Both the position numbers and the translations under genes were made by a program. From the NCBI GenBank assembly GCA_018434355.1, contig JAHDPL010000022.1, positions 1-64,000 on the forward strand: a DNA stretch of 64,000 bases, in the 5' to 3' direction. The notes below the pieces were generated by a model, which was given only the letters and a program-made list of their open reading frames with translations, had not been told where the DNA came from and did not search any database. Positions within the stretch are counted from its first letter, which is position 1; each line of letters opens with the position of its first letter. Of this stretch, positions 21,640 to 32,900 are shown piece by piece. This DNA is from Sporomusaceae bacterium (GTDB lineage: Bacteria; Bacillota; Negativicutes; UBA1444).

Positions 21640-21672
21640 TCTGAGCGATTGAACAGGGGTGAACTGGTAATT

Positions 21673-23037
21673 TTGAGCCGGGAACTGGCAGAAAAAATTC
21701 TCGGGGCGGTCGGTGGCCGCCCCAATGTTTTAAAATGTTCAAACTGCATGACGCGACTTCGCCTGAGTCTGAATGATGGCAGTCGGATTGATCAGTCATT
21801 GATAAAACAGATTCCTGGCGTGCTTGGTGTGGTTGGGACAGCAGATCAGCTGCAAATAGTTTTGGGGCCGGGAAAAGTGCAGCAGGTAGCCACTGAAATG
21901 GAAAAACTGCTGGCTGCATGGCCTATGCCGTCAGTCATCGGCAATGCGGCTGAAATGAAAGCGGCAGTGGCGCAAAAGAACCGAACCCCCCTTAAGATGT
22001 TTCTCGGACGACTGTCGGCCATTTTTGTGCCGTTGATTCCGGTAGTTGTTGCATCGGGAATGGTCGCTGGACTGACCAATGTTGCAGTTCGTCTGGGGGC
22101 GGATCCGCAGAGCGCCGGAATTCAGATTCTCAATGTCGTAGGTTGGGGATTGTTTGCATATTTACCGATTTTTGTCGGTTATCAGACAGCACGGGAGTTT
22201 GGCGGAACTCCTGCTCTGGGTGGATTGGCCGGCGTATTGCTAATAAACCCTGCCATCGCATCGGTTCAAATTGACGGCATTGCCTTGCTGCCAGGGCGCG
22301 GCGGTATTATTGGCGTGTTGCTGGTTGCAGGGTTCATGGCCTGGTTGGAGCAAAGGGTCAGGCGCTGTGTTCCTGCTGCCGTGGATATTATCGTTACCCC
22401 GACGATTACTTTGCTTGTAGGCGGGTTAGTGACCTATACGCTGTTGCAGCCTGTCAGCGGCGTGCTTTCGGATGCGGTGGTCGACTTGTTTCGGCAGGCT
22501 CTGGCAACTGGCGGATTCTTGGCTGGCGCTCTGCTGGCAGCCAGCTTTTTGCCGCTTGTTATGACTGGACTGCACCAGGGCTTGACACCGGTTCATATGG
22601 AGTTTCTCAACACTATGCGCGCCAATCCATTGCTACCGATCGTGGCAATGGCCGGAGCGGGGCAAGTGGGAGCTTCGGTGGCAGTGCTGTTAAAAAGCAA
22701 GAACAAACGTTTGCGTGGAATCGTGAAAGGCGCATTGCCGGTTGGACTGCTCGGGATCGGCGAGCCATTGATTTTCGGCGTTACGTTGCCACTCGGTCGC
22801 CCCTTTTTCACAGCCTGTGCGGGCGCTGCTTTCGGCGGGGCATTCCAGGCAATGATGCAGGTGCAGTCGATAGCCATGGGGGTATCAGGCTTGCCGTTGG
22901 CATTTTTAATCCGTACCGATCAGATTCTTCAGTATCTGTCAGGGTTATGTATAGCTTATATCGCCGGATTTGTCATTACCTGGCTGGTCGGGTTCGATGA
23001 TCCGGTCGAAGAAACTGCAGAACGGGAGGCGCCCTAA
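21673..23037 (+). CDS. murP: PTS EIIBC component, MurP-like (MurNAc uptake)
   Basis: A 454-residue phosphotransferase permease. The N-terminal EIIB domain (to about 80) carries the phosphocysteine in CSNCMTRLRLSL and the motif VLGVVGTADQLQIVLGPGK, closely like E. coli MurP. EIIC follows, with about ten membrane segments and the conserved GEPLIFGVTLPLG. There is no EIIA domain, as in MurP, so a glucose-type EIIA elsewhere must supply phosphate. Start TTG 21673 follows AGGGGTG and begins MSRELAEKIL as expected; a TTG at 21649 is the alternative. The following mupG and murQ genes strongly support MurNAc or MurNAc-disaccharide as substrate. Confidence 0.88.
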   Translation: MSRELAEKILGAVGGRPNVLKCSNCMTRLRLSLNDGSRIDQSLIKQIPGVLGVVGTADQLQIVLGPGKVQQVATEMEKLLAAWPMPSVIGNAAEMKAAVAQKNRTPLKMFLGRLSAIFVPLIPVVVASGMVAGLTNVAVRLGADPQSAGIQILNVVGWGLFAYLPIFVGYQTAREFGGTPALGGLAGVLLINPAIASVQIDGIALLPGRGGIIGVLLVAGFMAWLEQRVRRCVPAAVDIIVTPTITLLVGGLVTYTLLQPVSGVLSDAVVDLFRQALATGGFLAGALLAASFLPLVMTGLHQGLTPVHMEFLNTMRANPLLPIVAMAGAGQVGASVAVLLKSKNKRLRGIVKGALPVGLLGIGEPLIFGVTLPLGRPFFTACAGAAFGGAFQAMMQVQSIAMGVSGLPLAFLIRTDQILQYLSGLCIAYIAGFVITWLVGFDDPVEETAEREAP

Positions 23038-24129
23038 ATGTCAGAGCTGGGGATTGCCGTTTTCAGCGGACTAAATCAGAGCGTGGAACAAAACTTGAAT
23101 TATTTAAAAGTTGCGCGGCAGTATGGTTACAGCAGATTGTTCACATCGCTACATATACCGGAGAGTGATGCAATCCAATTGGTTCGGGATACTCGTCGGT
23201 TGCTGGCTTGTGCGACGGAGCTGGGCTTTTCCATAACGGCGGATATATCTCCCGCTACATGGCAGCAATTTGATATCAAGCCTGCTGAACTTAATAAAAT
23301 CGGTGTTGGAACCGTCAGAATCGATTACGGGATCGGTCCTGCCGAGATGAAGCAACTGTCTGACGCTGCGAACGTGGCAGTGGAGGTCAATGCAAGTGTC
23401 CTGACCGAAGTTGCATTGTCAGGGCTGTTTGCGGCAGGATTCACCGCCGGTTGTTTATCCGCCTGCCACAATTATTATCCGCGTCCTGAGACAGGACTTT
23501 CGCTATCCTTGCTAATTGAACGGTCACAAGTCTTTTCCAGCCGCAACATTCCGGTAGGCGCCTTTATTCCCAGCCTGCAAAACCCTCGTGGTCCGATCTT
23601 TTCGGGATTGCCGACCGTGGAGACGCACCGCCGCATGCCCGCGGTTGAAGCAGCAAGACAGCTTTGGGCAACAGGAATGATCGATCGGATTATTTGGGGC
23701 GACCCTGTGGTACCGGAACCGGAGCTAAGGGCGGTAGCGACGTTAGCCAAGCCCGAAGATACTTTTGTCACGTTGCGGTTGATAACTGAACCGGAAAAAA
23801 TGTCGGCGCAGGAGCGAGAGCTGGTCTTATTGCCGGTGCATACCAACCGCTGCGACGCAGCGGCGTTTGTCATCCGGTCCCAGGAGTCCCGCTGCCTATG
23901 CCGCCAATCCATACCCCAACATGGCAGTCGCAGCAGACGGCGTGGCGATGTGACGATCGATAATGCCGGCTATGGCAGATACATGGGAGAGTTGCAGATT
24001 GTGCTGCAGGCGTTGCCGGTGGATGAGCGGGTGAACGTCATCGGCAGAATTGTTGAAGCGGATCTGTGTTTGTTGGACTGCATCGTTCCCGGTAAACGGT
24101 TTTGCTTAAAGGAGGTCGAATCTCCATGA
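23038..24129 (+). CDS. mupG: MupG-family 6-phospho-N-acetylmuramidase (DUF871)
   Basis: A 363-residue TIM-barrel protein with a C-terminal domain. It opens with LGIAVFSGLNQSVEQN, includes ITADISPATWQQF, the loop CHNYYPRPETGLS, and ends with VTIDNAGYGRYMGELQI and VNVIGRIVEADL, all typical of the DUF871/MupG family. In Staphylococcus, MupG splits MurNAc-6P-GlcNAc inside the cell. Its presence here suggests the PTS imports the disaccharide as well as free MurNAc. It starts directly after the murP stop and its own stop overlaps the murQ start (ATGA). The stretch around residues 284-300 is more basic than usual but remains in frame with the conserved block after it. Confidence 0.88.
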   Translation: MSELGIAVFSGLNQSVEQNLNYLKVARQYGYSRLFTSLHIPESDAIQLVRDTRRLLACATELGFSITADISPATWQQFDIKPAELNKIGVGTVRIDYGIGPAEMKQLSDAANVAVEVNASVLTEVALSGLFAAGFTAGCLSACHNYYPRPETGLSLSLLIERSQVFSSRNIPVGAFIPSLQNPRGPIFSGLPTVETHRRMPAVEAARQLWATGMIDRIIWGDPVVPEPELRAVATLAKPEDTFVTLRLITEPEKMSAQERELVLLPVHTNRCDAAAFVIRSQESRCLCRQSIPQHGSRSRRRGDVTIDNAGYGRYMGELQIVLQALPVDERVNVIGRIVEADLCLLDCIVPGKRFCLKEVESP

Positions 24130-25067
24130 ACCTTGAACGGCTAATGACAGAAAAACGAAATCCGGACACGAAAAATATTGATATGCTGAGCACACTGGAA
24201 ATCGTTGCGGCTATTCAACGGGAAGATGAAAAGGTCGCAGCCGCTGTGAAAATGACATTGCCGGATGTGGCGGCGGCGGTCGAATTGATTGTCGCAGCGT
24301 TGAAACGGGGCGGCAGGCTATTTTATCTGGGCGCAGGAACCAGCGGTCGACTCGGGGTATTGGATGCGGCGGAGTGTCCGCCTACGTTCAGTACGGAACC
24401 GGAACTGGTCCAGGCAATCATTGCCGGCGGCAATGATGCAATGTTTCAGGCAGTGGAAGGCGCGGAAGATGATTCACAGCAAGCAATGATTGACCTGCAG
24501 TCGCGAGGATTGATGCCACAAGATGCGGTAGTGGGATTGAGCGCCAGCGGACGGACACCGTATGTCATTGGCGGACTGCAGTATGCCGAACAGATCGGCG
24601 CGACCCGACTGGCGGTGGTATGCGTGCCTGAATCAGAAATGGCATCTTATGCTCAGATTACCATCGCAGCGCTGGTCGGCCCGGAAGTTATCGCCGGGTC
24701 AACCCGGATGAAAGCAGGGACAGCGCAAAAAATGATCTTAAATATGCTGTCGACGGCTACGATGGTAAGGTTGGGCAAGACTTACGGAAATCTGATGGTG
24801 GATGTCCGGGCCACTAATGCCAAACTGACAGCAAGAGTTCAGCGAATGGTGAAGGATGTCACCGGAGCAAGCGAACCGGATGTGACTGCGGCGTTGGAAC
24901 AGGCAGCAGGTTCGGCTAAGACCGCGATTGTCATGCTATTGGGTCGATGTTCGGCTAAGCAGGCAGTTCAACTACTTGCGCAGGCTCATGGATCGGTGCG
25001 CCACGCGCTAAAGCAGGCTGGACTGCCGTGTCAACAGGGATTGGAGAGAATGAATGATGAAGGATGA
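24126..25067 (+). CDS. murQ: N-acetylmuramic acid 6-phosphate etherase
   Basis: A 313-residue SIS-domain lyase that cleaves the lactyl ether of MurNAc-6P to give GlcNAc-6P and D-lactate. The first substrate loop LGAGTSGRLGVLDAAECPPT and the acid residues in QAVEGAEDD are intact, as are GLSASGRTPYVIGG and the later GSTRMKAGTAQKMILNM. Start ATG 24126 is chosen because AAAGGAGGT lies at the right distance and it overlaps the mupG stop by four bases; an earlier TTG in frame would add eight residues. It overlaps nagA by 14 bases, so these genes are translationally coupled. Confidence 0.95.
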   Translation: MNLERLMTEKRNPDTKNIDMLSTLEIVAAIQREDEKVAAAVKMTLPDVAAAVELIVAALKRGGRLFYLGAGTSGRLGVLDAAECPPTFSTEPELVQAIIAGGNDAMFQAVEGAEDDSQQAMIDLQSRGLMPQDAVVGLSASGRTPYVIGGLQYAEQIGATRLAVVCVPESEMASYAQITIAALVGPEVIAGSTRMKAGTAQKMILNMLSTATMVRLGKTYGNLMVDVRATNAKLTARVQRMVKDVTGASEPDVTAALEQAAGSAKTAIVMLLGRCSAKQAVQLLAQAHGSVRHALKQAGLPCQQGLERMNDEG

Positions 25068-26226
25068 TTCACTCAAACAAAACCTGTTGTTTACGAATGG
25101 GCGCTTGATTTTGCCGGACCAGGAGTTGCCACAGTCGAGTTTATCCGTGATTGACGGGTTGATTGACGGCATCTACGCTGCGGAGCAGAATGATCCGATA
25201 AAAGACGACAGTAAATGTCTTGATATCGAAAAGGTCGATCTGCAGGGAGACATACTGATCCCTGGCTTGATTGATTTGCATGTGCATGGTTGTGGTGGCG
25301 CCGATGTGATGGACGGGAACCCTGATGCATTGACAGATGTGGCGACTGCTTTATTACAACAGGGGACAACGGCGTTTTTGGCTACGACAATGACTGCCCC
25401 GACCAGCCGTTTGGAAACCGCAATCAACAGATCCGTGGCACAGATGCTGTCTTGTTGCGTCGCTGAATTGCTGGGATTTCATCTGGAAGGACCTTGCTTG
25501 TCGGAGCGATATCGAGGTGCGCAAAAAATTATTGCACAGCGAGAAGCACCACCAATCAATTCGCAGGTCAAGCTGATCACAATTGCTCCCGAATTGCCTG
25601 AAGCGGAGGCGTATTTTACTCTTGCGGAGGACTTGGGTATCATTCTTTCGGTCGGTCATTCAGCAGCCAGCTATGAACAGATGCTGTCAGCAATAAATCG
25701 CGGCGTGAGTTATTTGACCCATGCATTCAATGCGATGCCGGGTATCCATCATCGCAATCCCGGCCTGTTGACAGCGGCCTTGATTGATTCCCGCTTGACC
25801 ATCGAGTTGATCGCCGACGGGGTGCATATTCACCCGGCGGTGTTGGAATTGGCTTTGCGGCTTAAATCGCCGGATAACGTCGTACTGGTTTCTGACGGAA
25901 CAAGAGCGGTCGGATTGCCGGATGGCGATTATGAACTTGGCGGGCAGATTACGCATTTGCGTGACGGGAAATTGACCTTGGATGATGGAACCATTGCCGG
26001 TAGCGCCAAACCGCTACTTGCAGGAGTAAAAATGTTGGCAACCAAACTTAACCGACCCTTGTATGAAGCAGTACGACTAGCGACACTAAATCCTGCACGC
26101 ATTGCAAAAGTCGATCATCGTCTAGGAAGTTTGTCTATAGGTAAAGAAGCAACATTCTTGCGTCTTGATGATAATCTGAATCTAAAGCAAGTCTGGTTGC
26201 GAGGCCGGTTGATGCAAAAATTTTAG
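25054..26226 (+). CDS. nagA: N-acetylglucosamine-6-phosphate deacetylase
   Basis: A 390-residue amidohydrolase that removes acetate from GlcNAc-6P, the product of MurQ. Metal and catalytic motifs appear in order: LIDLHVHGCGGADVMDG, HLEGPCLSERYRGAQ, SVGHSAASYEQ, LTHAFNAMPGIHHRNPG, IADGVHIHP and the catalytic aspartate in LVSDGTRAVGLPDG. The EGP...GAQ form resembles Bacillus NagA rather than the enteric type. The gene closes the operon; the glucosamine-6P deaminase NagB is not in the window. It overlaps murQ. No clear terminator follows. Confidence 0.95.
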   Translation: MMKDDSLKQNLLFTNGRLILPDQELPQSSLSVIDGLIDGIYAAEQNDPIKDDSKCLDIEKVDLQGDILIPGLIDLHVHGCGGADVMDGNPDALTDVATALLQQGTTAFLATTMTAPTSRLETAINRSVAQMLSCCVAELLGFHLEGPCLSERYRGAQKIIAQREAPPINSQVKLITIAPELPEAEAYFTLAEDLGIILSVGHSAASYEQMLSAINRGVSYLTHAFNAMPGIHHRNPGLLTAALIDSRLTIELIADGVHIHPAVLELALRLKSPDNVVLVSDGTRAVGLPDGDYELGGQITHLRDGKLTLDDGTIAGSAKPLLAGVKMLATKLNRPLYEAVRLATLNPARIAKVDHRLGSLSIGKEATFLRLDDNLNLKQVWLRGRLMQKF

Positions 26227-26397: not shown

Positions 26398-26598
26398 ATG
26401 GATATGACGGCCGTGTCTGCCGCAATGTCAGTCAGACAGGCGGTAACACAACAAGCTATAGGAACGGCTGTAACGAAGTTGGCGATGAATCAGCAGCAAC
26501 AATCCGGACAAATGGTCGTGGATTTGTTGAAATCAGCGTCACCGGCGGGCAAGGCGTCGCTTCCGCATTTAGGGCAGAACATCGATATTTCGATTTGA
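26398..26598 (+). CDS. YjfB-family putative motility protein
   Basis: A 66-residue protein of the YjfB_motility family. It starts MDMTAVSAAMSVRQAVTQQA, has the helical core AVTKLAMNQQQQSGQMVVDLL, and ends with the family's PHLGQNIDISI. These proteins are small, soluble and helical; they are associated with flagellar regulons in Firmicutes, with unknown biochemistry. It has a very strong ribosome site (GGAAGGGAGGTGA). It is transcribed alone, between a possible sigma-D promoter and a clear terminator. The length is standard for the family. Confidence 0.85.
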   Translation: MDMTAVSAAMSVRQAVTQQAIGTAVTKLAMNQQQQSGQMVVDLLKSASPAGKASLPHLGQNIDISI

Positions 26599-26607
26599 AT
26601 TGCAAAT

Positions 26608-26645
26608 AAAAAACAGGTTCCGGAATTTCCGGAGCCTGTTTTTTA
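26608..26645 (+). terminator. Terminator after the YjfB-like gene
   Basis: AAAAACAGG(T)TCCGGAA and TTCCGGA(G)CCTGTTTTT form a long stem followed by T residues. Confidence 0.92.
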
Positions 26646-26730
26646 TTGTAAACGCAGGATTCCCGCTAGTTATGTCAAATTCAGATAGCAGGCGAAATCG
26701 CAGTGTATGATTGTGGGAGGACGGGAATCC

Positions 26731-28008
26731 TTGGTGAGGAATTTATTTCGCAGTATCTGCATTCTTCTTGGTGCGTTGATTTGTTGGAGCGCGGTTACAG
26801 ATAACATCCATGTCTGGCCGGTGCGCAACACCATTGAGTATTATGCGGCTAGAAACTGGTGGAATCTGGTCGGCGAGCCGGCGAGAACCCATCATGGCGC
26901 TATTGAAGGCATGGTTGTCGATGAAGCGGGGAACGCAATCCCTCAAGCTGTTGTCCTGTTGTCAGAATGGGATGGCAAGGTTTATTCCAGTCTGACCGAC
27001 CAGTATGGTCTCTACAGGATCGAAGGCATACCTATAGGATTTTACCGTTTGGCGGCTGTGGCGCCTGGCTACACTCCCATGCAGACCGGCGGCCTTTTGC
27101 GCGGAGTTACTGTGCGACCGAACCGGACCGTTCAAGCCGCCTTCCAACTGCGAGTAGAATCTTCCGCGCAGAAAGCTGGGTTATTGTCACCGCAACGACT
27201 TGAATCGCAGGAGTTGGTTTGTCAAAGCCCGGTGGCAGGATCTGCCAAACGGGAAACATTGCGATTTGACCAACAACAATGGAATGAGCTGGTGTTTCTT
27301 TATCGTCCTGTAGGAACCGACAGCGACCAGCTACCTGTTTTGTTGACTGTATATCCCGGTCCGGTGGACACCTGGGAATGTGTAAGTATCGGTCTGGCGC
27401 AGGCCGGATATGCGGTTTTGGCAGTTGGACCAGCGTACGGGCTGGATTTGACAAAAGATGTCGATGCGTTGCAAAAATTGTTATTATTGGTAAAGCAGGG
27501 CGGAATTGCAGGTCTGGATGGCGACAGAATCGCTGCGCTGGGGGGCAGCTACAGCGCCTTGTTGCTGGAACTTTTGATGCTGCGTGACCCCGGCCTGTCG
27601 GCGGTGATTTTGCTGGGACCGCCAACCGACATGTTCGATTTTCGACGGCGTTTTGAAAGAGAAGGTTTCCGACCGCCGTTTGGCCTTGACCGCGCGCTGG
27701 TCGCGCTTGGACTGCCGAGCCGTGATCCATTGCGTTATCTGAAACATTCGATGGTGTATCATGTGCGACCAGGTTTGCCAGCGACACAAATATTCCATAG
27801 CTATCAGGATGAAATCGTTCCCTACCAGCAAAGCAGTTTATTGACGGAAAGCCTCACGCGGCAGGGTGCTGAGGTAGAGTTGCATCTGTTTGAAGGCGCC
27901 AGTCATTATTTATTGGAAGATGGAGCTGCAGCAATGACGATTTATCAACAGACGCTGGAATTTTTACGACGACATGGAATGGCGCCGTTTCCGGGAAAGG
28001 GGAGGTAG
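26731..28008 (+). CDS. Membrane-anchored alpha/beta hydrolase with carboxypeptidase-regulatory-like domain
   Basis: A protein of about 425 residues. An N-terminal hydrophobic helix (SICILLGALICWSAV) anchors or exports it. Residues about 55-130 form a beta-sandwich of the carboxypeptidase regulatory-like type (IEGMVVDEAGNAIPQAVVLL, YGLYRIEGIPIGFYRL). The rest is an alpha/beta hydrolase with nucleophile elbow GGSYS, acid in YQDEIVP and histidine in GASHYLL, like S9-family esterases. It heads an operon with an SDR, Aas and LplT, so action on a lipid or acylated envelope molecule is suggested by context. TTG 26731 is preferred because GGGAGG lies ten bases upstream; ATG 26707 is the longer alternative. 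The exact substrate is unknown. Confidence 0.8.
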   Translation: MVRNLFRSICILLGALICWSAVTDNIHVWPVRNTIEYYAARNWWNLVGEPARTHHGAIEGMVVDEAGNAIPQAVVLLSEWDGKVYSSLTDQYGLYRIEGIPIGFYRLAAVAPGYTPMQTGGLLRGVTVRPNRTVQAAFQLRVESSAQKAGLLSPQRLESQELVCQSPVAGSAKRETLRFDQQQWNELVFLYRPVGTDSDQLPVLLTVYPGPVDTWECVSIGLAQAGYAVLAVGPAYGLDLTKDVDALQKLLLLVKQGGIAGLDGDRIAALGGSYSALLLELLMLRDPGLSAVILLGPPTDMFDFRRRFEREGFRPPFGLDRALVALGLPSRDPLRYLKHSMVYHVRPGLPATQIFHSYQDEIVPYQQSSLLTESLTRQGAEVELHLFEGASHYLLEDGAAAMTIYQQTLEFLRRHGMAPFPGKGR

Positions 28009-28011
28009 CAA

Positions 28012-28776
28012 GTGCAGCTGGATTTTTCTGCAAAAGTCGTACTGATCAGCGGTGGAACTTCCGGTATTGGACTGGCAACCGCTAAAAAATTCCTTGCCGC
28101 GAGCGCAACGGTTGTCATTAACGGACGGGATATGAGGCGCGGTGAACTTGCGTTGCAGGAGCTGGCAGGCGGGTCAGATCATTTGGCTTTCATTGCCGGA
28201 GACGTGACTCGGACTGACGACTGTCGTGCGTTGGTTGAACGCACCTGTCAGCAGTTTGGCCGGATTGACGTATTGGTCAATTCGGCGGGCGAGTATCTGG
28301 AGAAGTCATTGGCGGATACTACAGAAGCAGAGTATGACAGGATCATGTCAGTCAACATGAAGGGAGCATTCTTTTTGACGCAGGCGGCGCTAAGCGAGTT
28401 GAAACAAACGTGCGGCAATATTGTCAATGTGTCTTCTGACGCCGGGCTGAACGGAAATGTGCTTTGTACTGCCTACTGCGCGTCAAAAGGCGCGCTGACA
28501 CTTTTCACCAAGGCTTTGTCTCTGGAATTGGCGCCGCATGGGGTGCGGGTCAACTGTGTCTGTCCCGGCGATATCGAAACACCGATGTTGGCGCGACAAG
28601 TTGCCGAAACTTCTGATCCTGAAATGTTCCGCCGTCAGATGTCCGGTATTTATCCGCTGGGACGGATTGGTACGGCGGAGGAAGTTGCATCGGTAATCCG
28701 ATTTTTAGCCTCCGACTCGGCGGCTTTTGTTACCGGCGCCGCCTGGAGCGTGGACGGAGGTTTGACGGCAGGATGA
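28012..28776 (+). CDS. Short-chain dehydrogenase/reductase (FabG-like)
   Basis: A 254-residue classical SDR. The cofactor loop is SGGTSGIGLATA, followed by the acidic/basic NGRDMRRGE segment suggesting NADP(H), then VNSAGEYLEK, the catalytic serine in NVSSDAGLNGN, and YCASKGALTLF holding the active Tyr and Lys. The end, GRIGTAEEVASVIRFLASDSAAFVTG with VDGG, is typical. GTG start with GGAGG right before it; its stop overlaps the aas start by four bases. It belongs to the hydrolase-SDR-Aas-LplT operon. It may reduce a 3-oxoacyl group or an alcohol, but this is undetermined. Confidence 0.9.
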   Translation: MQLDFSAKVVLISGGTSGIGLATAKKFLAASATVVINGRDMRRGELALQELAGGSDHLAFIAGDVTRTDDCRALVERTCQQFGRIDVLVNSAGEYLEKSLADTTEAEYDRIMSVNMKGAFFLTQAALSELKQTCGNIVNVSSDAGLNGNVLCTAYCASKGALTLFTKALSLELAPHGVRVNCVCPGDIETPMLARQVAETSDPEMFRRQMSGIYPLGRIGTAEEVASVIRFLASDSAAFVTGAAWSVDGGLTAG

Positions 28777-30896
28777 CCAGGCTGTTGGCGTGGCTTATCC
28801 GTATATTGTTCCGTCTGAAGATTGATCATAGTGATCGTCTGGTATTTGACGGACCCACTGTCATCATGCCAAACCATGTTTCTTTTTTGGACGCTTTGTT
28901 GCTTTACCTGATGCTGCCGAAGTCGGTATGGTTTGTCGTGAACACGGAGATCGCTGCACGGCCTTGGGTCGAACTGGCGCTGCGTTTTTGCAACCATGTC
29001 AAGATCGATAACCGTAATCCCTATAGTTTGCGGACAATCATCAGTGTTGTACGCGAAGGCAATCCGGTGGTGTTGTTTCCCGAAGGCAGGATATCAAACA
29101 CCGGCGGATTGATGAAGATGTATACGGGTGCGGCATTGATAGCTTGGAAGACTAATGCAAAAGTTTTTCCGATCATCCTAAGGGGACCGGAGTATTCGCT
29201 GTTATCACGCATCAAGGATAAGGTGAAACCCCGATGGTTGCCGAAAATCAGGATCTTTATCGGCGAACCCAGCGTATTGGTTACGGAAACAGAACTTGGT
29301 TTTCGGGTCCAAAAAGCAGCGATTACCGACAAGCTGCTGACCTTGATGCAGCATACGATGTTTTTAGCGCGTAGGAAGGAATACGCGAAACTGGATTTTT
29401 TTGCCCGGCTTCAACTCGCTGCGAAAACGCATGGTGCAAGCAGACCGATTGTGCGCGACTTGAATCGGGCGGTCAATTACCGAAGCCTGATCGCGGGCGT
29501 GAATGTGATGTCCGGAAAACTGCGAGCTGCGTTTGCGTTGGGCGAAGATACGGTCGGTGTGTTGCTGCCCAATGCGGTGGCTCATGTGGTTGTTTTGTTT
29601 GCTTTGTTTCAACTGGGTAAGACCCCGGCGATACTGAACTTTTCCACCGGGCTGCGAAATGTGCTGGATAGCGCCGGTACCGCAGGCATAAGGACGGTGC
29701 TGACTTCTCGGGTCTTTGTCGAAAAAGCGAACATGGGCGAGTTGGTCGGTCAACTTGCCACGACATGCCAAATCATCTATCTGGAGGACTTGGCAAAAAC
29801 CGTCTCGATGTTGGATAAACTCACCGGATTATACCGGTATTTCGAAAGACAACCTGGCGCTGCAACCGCAGATTCCCGCCTGATCCTGTTCACCTCGGGA
29901 ACGGAGGGGCGTCCTAAGGGAGTTGTATTGTCCCATCGGGCGATACTGGCAAATATTGACCAGGCTTCCAGCGTGATTGATTATTCCCCGGCCGACCGGA
30001 TGCTTAATGCTTTGCCGATGTTCCACAGTTTCGGCTTGATGGCTGGAACGATGCTGCCAATATTGGGCGGAATAGAGTTGTTCTTGTATCCGTCGCCGTT
30101 GCATTTCCGAATTGTGCCGGAAATCGCTTACGACTTTAATGCAACCTTGATGCTTGGCACACCGACTTTTTTGGCCGGCTATGGCAAGGTGGCCCATCCG
30201 TATGATTTTCACCGGTTGCGATATGTGTTGGCAGGCGGTGAAAAACTACGGCAACCGGTTCGAGATTTGTGGCTGGACAAGTTCGGCATTCGCATTCTCG
30301 AAGGGTATGGCGTAACTGAAACCGGACCGGTACTCTGTTTAAATACACCGCTGGCTGCTCGCACCGGCTCAGTCGGTAAATTTTTACCGGAAATCGAGTG
30401 GCGACTGGACCCGGTGCCAGGGATCGACAGTGGCGGCAATCTGGTGGTACGCGGCCCCAACCTGATGGAAGGCTATCTTCTGTATGAACAGGGTTTCCGT
30501 CCGGTTGACGGCTGGTACGCGACCGGTGACGTGGTTTCAGTTGACTCGGCCGGATATGCTTTTATCCAGGCGCGGCTGAAGCGGTTTGCCAAGATTGCCG
30601 GCGAAATGATCAACTTACAAATTGTCGAAGAAGCTGCGTCCGCCTGTTTTGGCACTGGCCTGCATGCAGCGGTTGCGGCGGCGGATGGACGCAAAGGTGA
30701 GCGGGTGGTGTTGTTCACCACCAACTCGCAGACAAAGCGTGAAGTGCTAAGGGAATACTTTTTGCAGACGGGACATAGTGTCTTATATGTGCCAAGTCAC
30801 ATCATTCCTATTGCGACGATGCCGCTACTCGGTACAGGCAAACCGGATTATCTTGGATTGCAGAAACAGGCGGAAATAATTCTGAACGGTGTGTGA
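28773..30896 (+). CDS. aas: Bifunctional acyltransferase/acyl-ACP synthetase Aas
   Basis: A 707-residue fusion. The N-terminal glycerophospholipid acyltransferase (about 1-190) has the HxxxxD motif NHVSFLD and the FPEGRISNTGGLMKM block. The C-terminal AMP-forming ligase (about 210-700) has LFTSGTEGRPKGVVLSH, GYGVTETGP, GWYATGDV and RLKRFAKIAGEMI. E. coli Aas is 719 residues with the same order and reacylates lysophosphatidylethanolamine at the inner membrane. The gene downstream is lplT, the flippase that supplies its substrate, as in E. coli. It overlaps the SDR stop by four bases. Confidence 0.95.
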   Translation: MTRLLAWLIRILFRLKIDHSDRLVFDGPTVIMPNHVSFLDALLLYLMLPKSVWFVVNTEIAARPWVELALRFCNHVKIDNRNPYSLRTIISVVREGNPVVLFPEGRISNTGGLMKMYTGAALIAWKTNAKVFPIILRGPEYSLLSRIKDKVKPRWLPKIRIFIGEPSVLVTETELGFRVQKAAITDKLLTLMQHTMFLARRKEYAKLDFFARLQLAAKTHGASRPIVRDLNRAVNYRSLIAGVNVMSGKLRAAFALGEDTVGVLLPNAVAHVVVLFALFQLGKTPAILNFSTGLRNVLDSAGTAGIRTVLTSRVFVEKANMGELVGQLATTCQIIYLEDLAKTVSMLDKLTGLYRYFERQPGAATADSRLILFTSGTEGRPKGVVLSHRAILANIDQASSVIDYSPADRMLNALPMFHSFGLMAGTMLPILGGIELFLYPSPLHFRIVPEIAYDFNATLMLGTPTFLAGYGKVAHPYDFHRLRYVLAGGEKLRQPVRDLWLDKFGIRILEGYGVTETGPVLCLNTPLAARTGSVGKFLPEIEWRLDPVPGIDSGGNLVVRGPNLMEGYLLYEQGFRPVDGWYATGDVVSVDSAGYAFIQARLKRFAKIAGEMINLQIVEEAASACFGTGLHAAVAAADGRKGERVVLFTTNSQTKREVLREYFLQTGHSVLYVPSHIIPIATMPLLGTGKPDYLGLQKQAEIILNGV

Positions 30897-30900
30897 GAAA

Positions 30901-32058
30901 ATGGCCTTGTTTTTGCTGGTGGCAGCGCAATTCCTGTCTGCATTCGTTGATAATATGATTCTGTTTGTTGCTCAAACCATCCTCTGGCGCGACGCTTACC
31001 CGAGCTGGTATTTGCAGCTGGTTCAGGCCACGTTCCTGTTATCATACATTGTGCTGTCTCCTTGGGCGGGAGTGCTGGCAGACCGCTTTGCCAAACGGAA
31101 TATCCTGATGGCAGGTAATGCGGTAAAATCGCTCGGAGTACTTGCAATGCTGTCGGGACTCGACCCTGCGATCAGCTACGCCATTGTCGGTATAGGCGCT
31201 GTTGTCTATAGTCCTGCCAAATACGGCATTTTACCATTGCTGACCAATACGGATTCGCAGCTTTTGAAAGCGAACTCGCAGGTCGAAGGCTTCACGATCC
31301 TGGCCATTTTGCTGGGGGCGGCGTTTGGCGGCTGGCTGGCTGACTATTCGGTTCCGTTGGCTCTGGGCTCGTGTCTGGGTTTGTATCTTGTTTCTGCGCT
31401 GCTGTGCTGCCGGATACCGGCAAATCCGGCAGACCATTCGCTAACCTTTTCCGGGGCAATCCAGCGTTTTTGCCATGACTTGATGACCGTTCTGGCGGAA
31501 AAGAAAGGCCGGTTTTCCTTGCTGGGGACCAGTGGCTTCTGGATGGCCTCGGCTGTTTTACGCTTGTCGGTGTTTGCCTGGTTGCCGATGGCGTTTGGCA
31601 TTCACGACAACACGACGATCGGCCTGATGGTCACGCTGAGCGGGGTAGGGCTGATCGCCGGCGCGGTTGTCACGCCAAGGCTGGTACCAACCGGAAATCA
31701 CGCAAGAATCATTCTGTTTGGTTCTCTGATGGCAATTGGCCTGATTGTATTGCCATGGACCCCATCATTGGCAGGCGCTTTGCTGATTCAGACAATTACC
31801 GGCAGTTTCGGCGGAGTGTACGTGATTCCGCTGAATGCAATGTTGCAGCGCGTAGGCGAACAAACGGTCGGAACAGGAAAAGCTGTGGCGATTCAGAATT
31901 TTGCCGAGAACAGTCTGATGTTTGTTGGTGTAAGCTTGTTCTTGCTTGCAGCGTGGTCCGGAGTACCGGTCGTTTGGTCGATGACCGGCAATGGGATTTT
32001 GTTGTTGACCGTCGTTTTGGGCTTGCGATATTTAACAATCAACTATTTGACAGAATAA
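30901..32058 (+). CDS. lplT: Lysophospholipid transporter LplT
   Basis: An MFS-fold protein of about 385 residues with some twelve membrane segments. It matches E. coli LplT along its length: AAQFLSAFVDNMILF, LADRFAKRNILMAGNAVK, VGIGAVVYSPAKYGIL, KANSQVEGFTILAILLG, RFSLLGTSGFW and VIPLNAMLQRVGEQTVGTGKA. LplT moves lysophospholipids from the outer to the inner leaflet of the cytoplasmic membrane for Aas to reacylate. ATG 30901 is used; GTG 30889, overlapping aas by eight bases, is an alternative, and neither has a strong ribosome site. The start is probably read by coupling from aas. Confidence 0.93.
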   Translation: MALFLLVAAQFLSAFVDNMILFVAQTILWRDAYPSWYLQLVQATFLLSYIVLSPWAGVLADRFAKRNILMAGNAVKSLGVLAMLSGLDPAISYAIVGIGAVVYSPAKYGILPLLTNTDSQLLKANSQVEGFTILAILLGAAFGGWLADYSVPLALGSCLGLYLVSALLCCRIPANPADHSLTFSGAIQRFCHDLMTVLAEKKGRFSLLGTSGFWMASAVLRLSVFAWLPMAFGIHDNTTIGLMVTLSGVGLIAGAVVTPRLVPTGNHARIILFGSLMAIGLIVLPWTPSLAGALLIQTITGSFGGVYVIPLNAMLQRVGEQTVGTGKAVAIQNFAENSLMFVGVSLFLLAAWSGVPVVWSMTGNGILLLTVVLGLRYLTINYLTE

Positions 32059-32074
32059 TCTCATAGTATATAAT
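32047..32074 (+). promoter_or_regulatory. Sigma-A promoter for the SprA-like gene
   Basis: TTGACA (32047-32052) and TATAAT (32069-32074) are both consensus, 16 bp apart. The -35 box lies inside the last codons of lplT. Confidence 0.75.
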
Positions 32075-32117: not shown

Positions 32118-32900
32118 GTGGTGAACGCCATACGCTCAACTACCGCATCTACGGTAGCCAGGGACGGAACGCAAGCAATAAATAATAATGCACTGCAAAC
32201 GCCGCAGATAACTGCGACGGGAAGTGTTGTCGGCAATTCTTCCTCTTCCTCAGCAGCAAATGGTTTACCTGACGTCGGTCCGGCCTATGAAGTTGAAATT
32301 TCGGCCGAGGGAAAAGCCATGGCCGAAAGTAGAGGCGGCGAGGCGGCGTCGACTGCAGGGACGGATGCGAAGCAATCCACGGAATCAATATCTGATCAGG
32401 CAAAAAAACAGCAGCAGGACTGGCGGATTCAGAGCGTAGCGATGCGAATGAAGCAAACCGAGCAAAACATCCGGGCTCATGAAGCTGCTCACATGGCAGC
32501 GGGCGGTGGTTTTGCCGGCAGTGCCAGCTATATATACGCCAAAGGGCCTGACGGAAAAATGTACGTTGTCGGCGGTGAAGTGCCGATTCAGGCGCCGGAA
32601 GGAAAAACACCGGAAGAAACGGTTAAGAATATGGAAGTAGTACAACGGGCCGCCCTGGCGCCGCCTGACCCGTCAGCCCAAGATTTGGCCGTTGCCGCTG
32701 CGGCGATGCAGATTGAAAGCCGGGCGCGAGCAGCAATCCGGCAAGGCCGTTTCCTGACGCAGGCCGACATGAAGGAAGACAGTGAACCGGGCGCCTTAAG
32801 CCGTCCGCCCGCCTGGCCGACCAGTATGGCAGGGTTGATTGCAACGCTAATGCCGGCTGAAGGAATGTATAACCGTTCGACGTCCACCCCGGTCGATTGA
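32118..32900 (+). CDS. SprA-related putative metalloprotease
   Basis: A 260-residue protein. The N-terminal 110 residues are low complexity, rich in Ser, Ala and Gln. The conserved block follows: MKQTEQNIRAHEAAHMAAGG, GSASYIYAKGPDGKMYVVGG, ALAPPDPSAQDLAVAAAAMQ. HEAAH fits an HExxH zinc site, and the region is that of SprA-related proteins (annotated as putative metalloproteases in many bacteria). There is no signal peptide, and proteolysis has not been shown. GTG 32118 follows GAGGAG; a second GTG is adjacent. It has its own strong promoter between the lipid operon and thrS. Confidence 0.82.
   Translation: MVNAIRSTTASTVARDGTQAINNNALQTPQITATGSVVGNSSSSSAANGLPDVGPAYEVEISAEGKAMAESRGGEAASTAGTDAKQSTESISDQAKKQQQDWRIQSVAMRMKQTEQNIRAHEAAHMAAGGGFAGSASYIYAKGPDGKMYVVGGEVPIQAPEGKTPEETVKNMEVVQRAALAPPDPSAQDLAVAAAAMQIESRARAAIRQGRFLTQADMKEDSEPGALSRPPAWPTSMAGLIATLMPAEGMYNRSTSTPVD

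Follow-up and report, generated by a model that had tools for sequence, protein, structure and literature searches.

Escherichia coli possesses PldA, an example of a phospholipase that generates lysophospholipid. In this bacterium lysophospholipid is made via Lnt and phospholipases (PMC11416262), and both in E. coli and in Pseudomonas aeruginosa the Aas-LplT system protects against phospholipase damage (PMC11416262, PMC8926400, PMC12663445). The E. coli genes (b2836-b2835) are placed with aas first and lplT second, overlapping by 8 bases. In many bacteria aas neighbours arc3 (PMC8926400). The arc3AB genes of P. aeruginosa, which limit lysophospholipid build-up, adjoin and are co-transcribed with the esterase gene estA, and estA was absent from the hits of the defence screens and co-immunoprecipitations (PMC8926400). 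This precedent indicates that an esterase gene located beside lysophospholipid genes is no proof of a common pathway.

We have analyzed a region of a 64,000 nucleotide stretch from a Sporomusaceae bacterium (the window) in which aas and lplT are preceded by the genes of a hydrolase and an SDR. A literature search on Negativicutes and lysophospholipid retrieved nothing on this locus. The same two proteins, in the same gene order, are found here and in E. coli, but the E. coli unit has neither hydrolase nor SDR. As in P. aeruginosa, an esterase-type gene adjoins a lysophospholipid-defence locus, although EstA is a different esterase and its gene is beside arc3, not aas. We tentatively read the locus as a lineage-specific extension of the Aas-LplT repair operon, for which the most likely mechanism would be a periplasm-facing serine acyl-hydrolase supplying LplT and Aas. 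The features are the following:

26612..26650, plus strand: hairpin with a T-run, seen by eye, between a YjfB-like gene and the hydrolase gene
26731..28008, plus strand: gene of a putative membrane-anchored alpha/beta hydrolase, GTG start assumed
28012..28776, plus strand: SDR gene (classical SDR, PRK07231-like), GTG start
28773..30896, plus strand: aas, a PlsC-type acyltransferase fused to an acyl-ACP synthetase (AMP-binding)
30889/30901..32058, plus strand: lplT, MFS lysophospholipid transporter, starting at GTG 30889 or ATG 30901
32047..32074, plus strand: match to a sigma-70-type promoter (TTGACA-16-TATAAT) that overlaps the stop codon of lplT

The tight packing of the four genes claimed in the preliminary description (junctions of 3, -4 and 4 bases) is borne out by the coordinates and the sequence of the plus strand. 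Three bases separate the hydrolase stop from the GTG of the SDR gene, the SDR and aas genes overlap by 4 bases at an ATGA, and the aas stop is 4 bases away from the lplT ATG at 30901. If translation began at the alternative in-frame GTG (30889), lplT would overlap aas by 8 bases, the same as in E. coli. Another in-frame ATG is found at 26707, 5' of the assumed start of the hydrolase gene. The hairpin is probably the end of the upstream transcription unit, with the proviso that a hairpin scan scored this structure on the minus strand only (at 26633-26619). At the other end, the promoter match has all 12 of the 12 consensus bases, so that the gene located 3' of lplT (32118-32900), coding for a SprA-related putative metalloprotease, probably has its own promoter. 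With the hairpin upstream and the promoter match downstream, the four genes look like one unit.

The identification of the last two genes as Aas and LplT was confirmed. LplT scored above the NCBIfam equivalog cut-off (NF008397, 341 versus 297 bits). Aas contains the PF01553 (PlsC) and PF00501 (AMP-binding) domains, both over cut-off, an HX4D motif (NHVSFLD) that aligns with that of E. coli Aas, and FPEGR. Its scores were below the equivalog cut-offs of PRK08043 (663 versus 886 bits) and PRK06814 (841 versus 1349 bits), but the alignments are full-length (in PRK06814, to its Aas part), and this together with the adjacency of lplT supports the assignment in spite of the scores. Judging from these known families, LplT would flip lysophospholipid and Aas would carry out its usual reactions.

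We compared the locus with one other genome of the genus (G001, UBA1444), where the hydrolase, SDR and aas genes appear in the same order (locus L005), with a 4-base gap followed by a 4-base overlap. That contig ends inside aas, so the conserved order covers these three genes. The proteins are 67% (hydrolase), 62% (SDR) and 68% (Aas) identical to those of the window. The upstream gene in L005 codes for the alpha chain of a serine dehydratase, which has no counterpart in the window, where NagA and the YjfB-like gene are found upstream of the operon. That order and junction type recur at this level of divergence indicates that the arrangement is beyond chance, and its presence in both species that the genus has conserved the unit. 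Besides, the hydrolase has not diverged faster than Aas and is therefore under constraint.

Outside the genus the picture is different. Searching 200 Negativicutes genomes (E <= 1e-60), we found Aas in 25, both members of the genus included, and the neighborhoods of the 24 loci present in the other 23 genomes were examined. The Aas proteins found there were 43-55% identical to that of the window. As in the window, aas is followed by lplT, directly 3' in 18 of the 24 loci, but the upstream slot that is taken here by the hydrolase and SDR genes is usually occupied there by a TetR-type regulator (directly 5' of aas in 14 of the 24). These regulators (L036, L041, L046 and other loci) are 51-85% identical to the L036 copy and likely regulate Aas-LplT in those bacteria. 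In none of the 24 loci did the hydrolase or a window-type SDR adjoin aas; L050 has an unrelated SDR near aas, with no more than 31% identity to that of the window. We detected a full-length relative of the hydrolase in none of 380 genomes of the class, the two of the genus aside, and in none of a 398-genome sample of the phylum, the window genome itself aside, and the matches outside the genus were partial, generic S9-like or CarboxypepD_reg-like (E >= 1e-8). Hence the association of the hydrolase and SDR genes with aas-lplT, as put forward in the preliminary description, holds in the congener and fails elsewhere, where the hydrolase is absent and the SDR ortholog lies away from aas. A linkage found in one genus only amounts to a single evolutionary event.

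Another explanation would be that the four genes have a common transcription unit and no common function. In the ancestor of the genus the TetR gene would have been lost and two unrelated genes, those of the hydrolase and the SDR, would have settled upstream of aas; despite co-transcription, the hydrolase would work elsewhere in the envelope. The usual presence of TetR 5' of aas in the other Negativicutes argues for this, as do the failure to find a close TetR ortholog in the genus (the best match had 37 bits), the confinement of the arrangement to one genus and an SDR gene that has no fixed neighborhood anywhere in the class. However, the order and the tight junctions have been kept while the proteins diverged to 62-68% identity, suggesting selection for co-expression. 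We rate this explanation equal to that of a hydrolase supplying LplT and Aas, both being held tentatively.

The hydrolase has a single N-terminal hydrophobic segment (residues 5-23), also kept in the congener, a CarboxypepD_reg domain (58-140; 50.2 bits, above the Pfam cut-off) and an S9/esterase-like hydrolase domain spanning about residues 190-415. The best family match of the latter was Peptidase_S9 (38.2 bits, with a Pfam gathering cut-off of 22.6), followed by weaker matches to BD-FAE and DLH, while the best PDB matches were general esterases. The predicted triad is S273 (within GGSYS), D360 and H392, all three conserved in the congener, and the last two align with a region of the solved esterase 5ao9. 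The hydrolase shares with these families the motif of the nucleophilic serine as well as the final D and H of the triad, in matching order, but here the N-terminal anchor and the carboxypeptidase-regulatory-like domain are added and the domain map shows no beta-propeller like that of classical S9 enzymes. Our analysis therefore agrees with the anchor, nucleophile and accessory domain that had been described, and calling the protein exported and membrane-anchored is a fair reading of its sequence. Structure prediction, based on an alignment of two homologs only, gave a pLDDT of 40.

These family relationships would also be compatible with a peptidase, or a sugar or aryl esterase, involved in the turnover of the envelope or of polymers and unrelated to phospholipids. 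Peptidase_S9 is the top family of the catalytic domain, with BD-FAE and DLH after it, the closest structures are those of general esterases, and the accessory carboxypeptidase-regulatory-like domain is of a generic kind. Nevertheless, with the propeller missing and lipid enzymes as operon partners, we regard this alternative as unlikely. We give similarly little credit to a hydrolase that would limit damage alongside Aas-LplT, without feeding it, either as a lysophospholipase or by trimming acylated envelope molecules of other kinds. A periplasm-facing hydrolase could indeed act on the same toxic lipid as Aas-LplT, but Pfam and NCBI family-profile searches revealed no similarity to a known lysophospholipase family. 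Pfam did not reveal PldA (PF02253) or patatin (PF01734) matches in this protein either.

With regard to the origin of lysophospholipid, a family search found no PldA in any of the 25 aas-bearing Negativicutes genomes. Lnt had no match in the window genome by the same kind of search (which could miss a divergent Lnt), and scored 90-118 bits in several of the other aas-bearing Negativicutes. Patatin-family proteins were present in 21 of these other 23 genomes, the two exceptions (G009 and G026) being only 74-77% complete, and were found neither in the window genome (100% complete) nor in G001 (73% complete). In a genome without PldA, Lnt or patatin, the hydrolase could be the one that supplies lysophospholipid, and fatty acid, to LplT and Aas. 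This comparison is post hoc and rests on one lineage, and many patatins are not envelope enzymes.

The mechanism that we favor would proceed as follows. Held by its N-terminal signal anchor, with the catalytic domain presumably outside the inner membrane, the hydrolase would be a serine acyl-hydrolase that cleaves envelope lipids into lysophospholipid and fatty acid. The former would be carried by LplT to the inner leaflet, and Aas would convert a fatty acid into acyl-ACP and reacylate the lysophospholipid. We infer the coupling of the hydrolase to LplT and Aas, favored by the tight junctions and same gene order in a second species with an unrelated upstream flank, by a Pfam S9/esterase-type hydrolase with conserved S, D and H, and by a true LplT. 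It is weakened because the sequences closest to the hydrolase domain belong to S9 peptidase-like proteins and to esterases of a general kind and not to phospholipases, because the linkage in one genus is a single evolutionary event, and because patatin is missing from 110 of the 200 Negativicutes anyway. More doubtful is an operon that encodes the entire deacylation-reacylation cycle, where a dedicated phospholipase, anchored in the inner membrane and facing outward, would provide the lysophospholipid in place of PldA, Lnt and patatin in this diderm Firmicute lineage, with LplT for retrieval and Aas for reacylation. A shared lipid-remodelling function of the four genes is plausible. Of the full circuit proposed originally, a hydrolase feeding LplT and Aas stands as a possibility that fits a genome in which PldA, Lnt and patatin were not found, while the acyl-chain modification by the SDR is unsupported. 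Should lysophospholipid be a product of the hydrolase, a single bacterial operon would encode a cycle for remodelling the acyl chains of membrane lipids, and the origin of the LplT substrate would be explained for diderm Firmicutes that have neither PldA nor Lnt. Otherwise, the locus is a local operon rearrangement.

The SDR deserves separate treatment. It had been described as FabG-like, and it is a classical SDR, but FabG itself was rejected (192 versus 298 bits for the TIGR01830 equivalog) and the best fit was the broad subfamily PRK07231 (245.5 versus a cut-off of 215 bits). Orthologs (loci L079-L120 among them) were found in 305 of 379 Negativicutes, which belong to 80 of 102 genera, and almost always as a single copy, which rejects an SDR specific to the operon. 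No consistent neighbor was found across Negativicutes, and the neighbors point to no role. In a quick tree, with modest deep support and rooted on a paralog of poorly extracted sequence (L064), the SDRs of the window and L005 group with the orthologs of the class, separated from the paralogous SDRs of the window genome. Being class-wide and located elsewhere in other chromosomes, the SDR gene has moved next to aas here. It is thus not a partner evolved for the operon, and a dedicated acyl-modifying step lacks support; the protein would be a cytoplasmic oxidoreductase common to the class, whose gene joined the operon and which need not act in the cycle.

As to the upstream flank in the window, the small gene at 26398-26598, of the YjfB type annotated as 'putative motility protein', is followed by the hairpin with its T-run and then by the hydrolase operon. 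Genes for a PTS EIIBC, MupG (6-phospho-N-acetylmuramidase), a MurQ-like SIS protein and a NagA-like amidohydrolase are clustered at 21649-26226, and we read them as a MurNAc-GlcNAc peptidoglycan-recycling operon of a diderm Firmicute.
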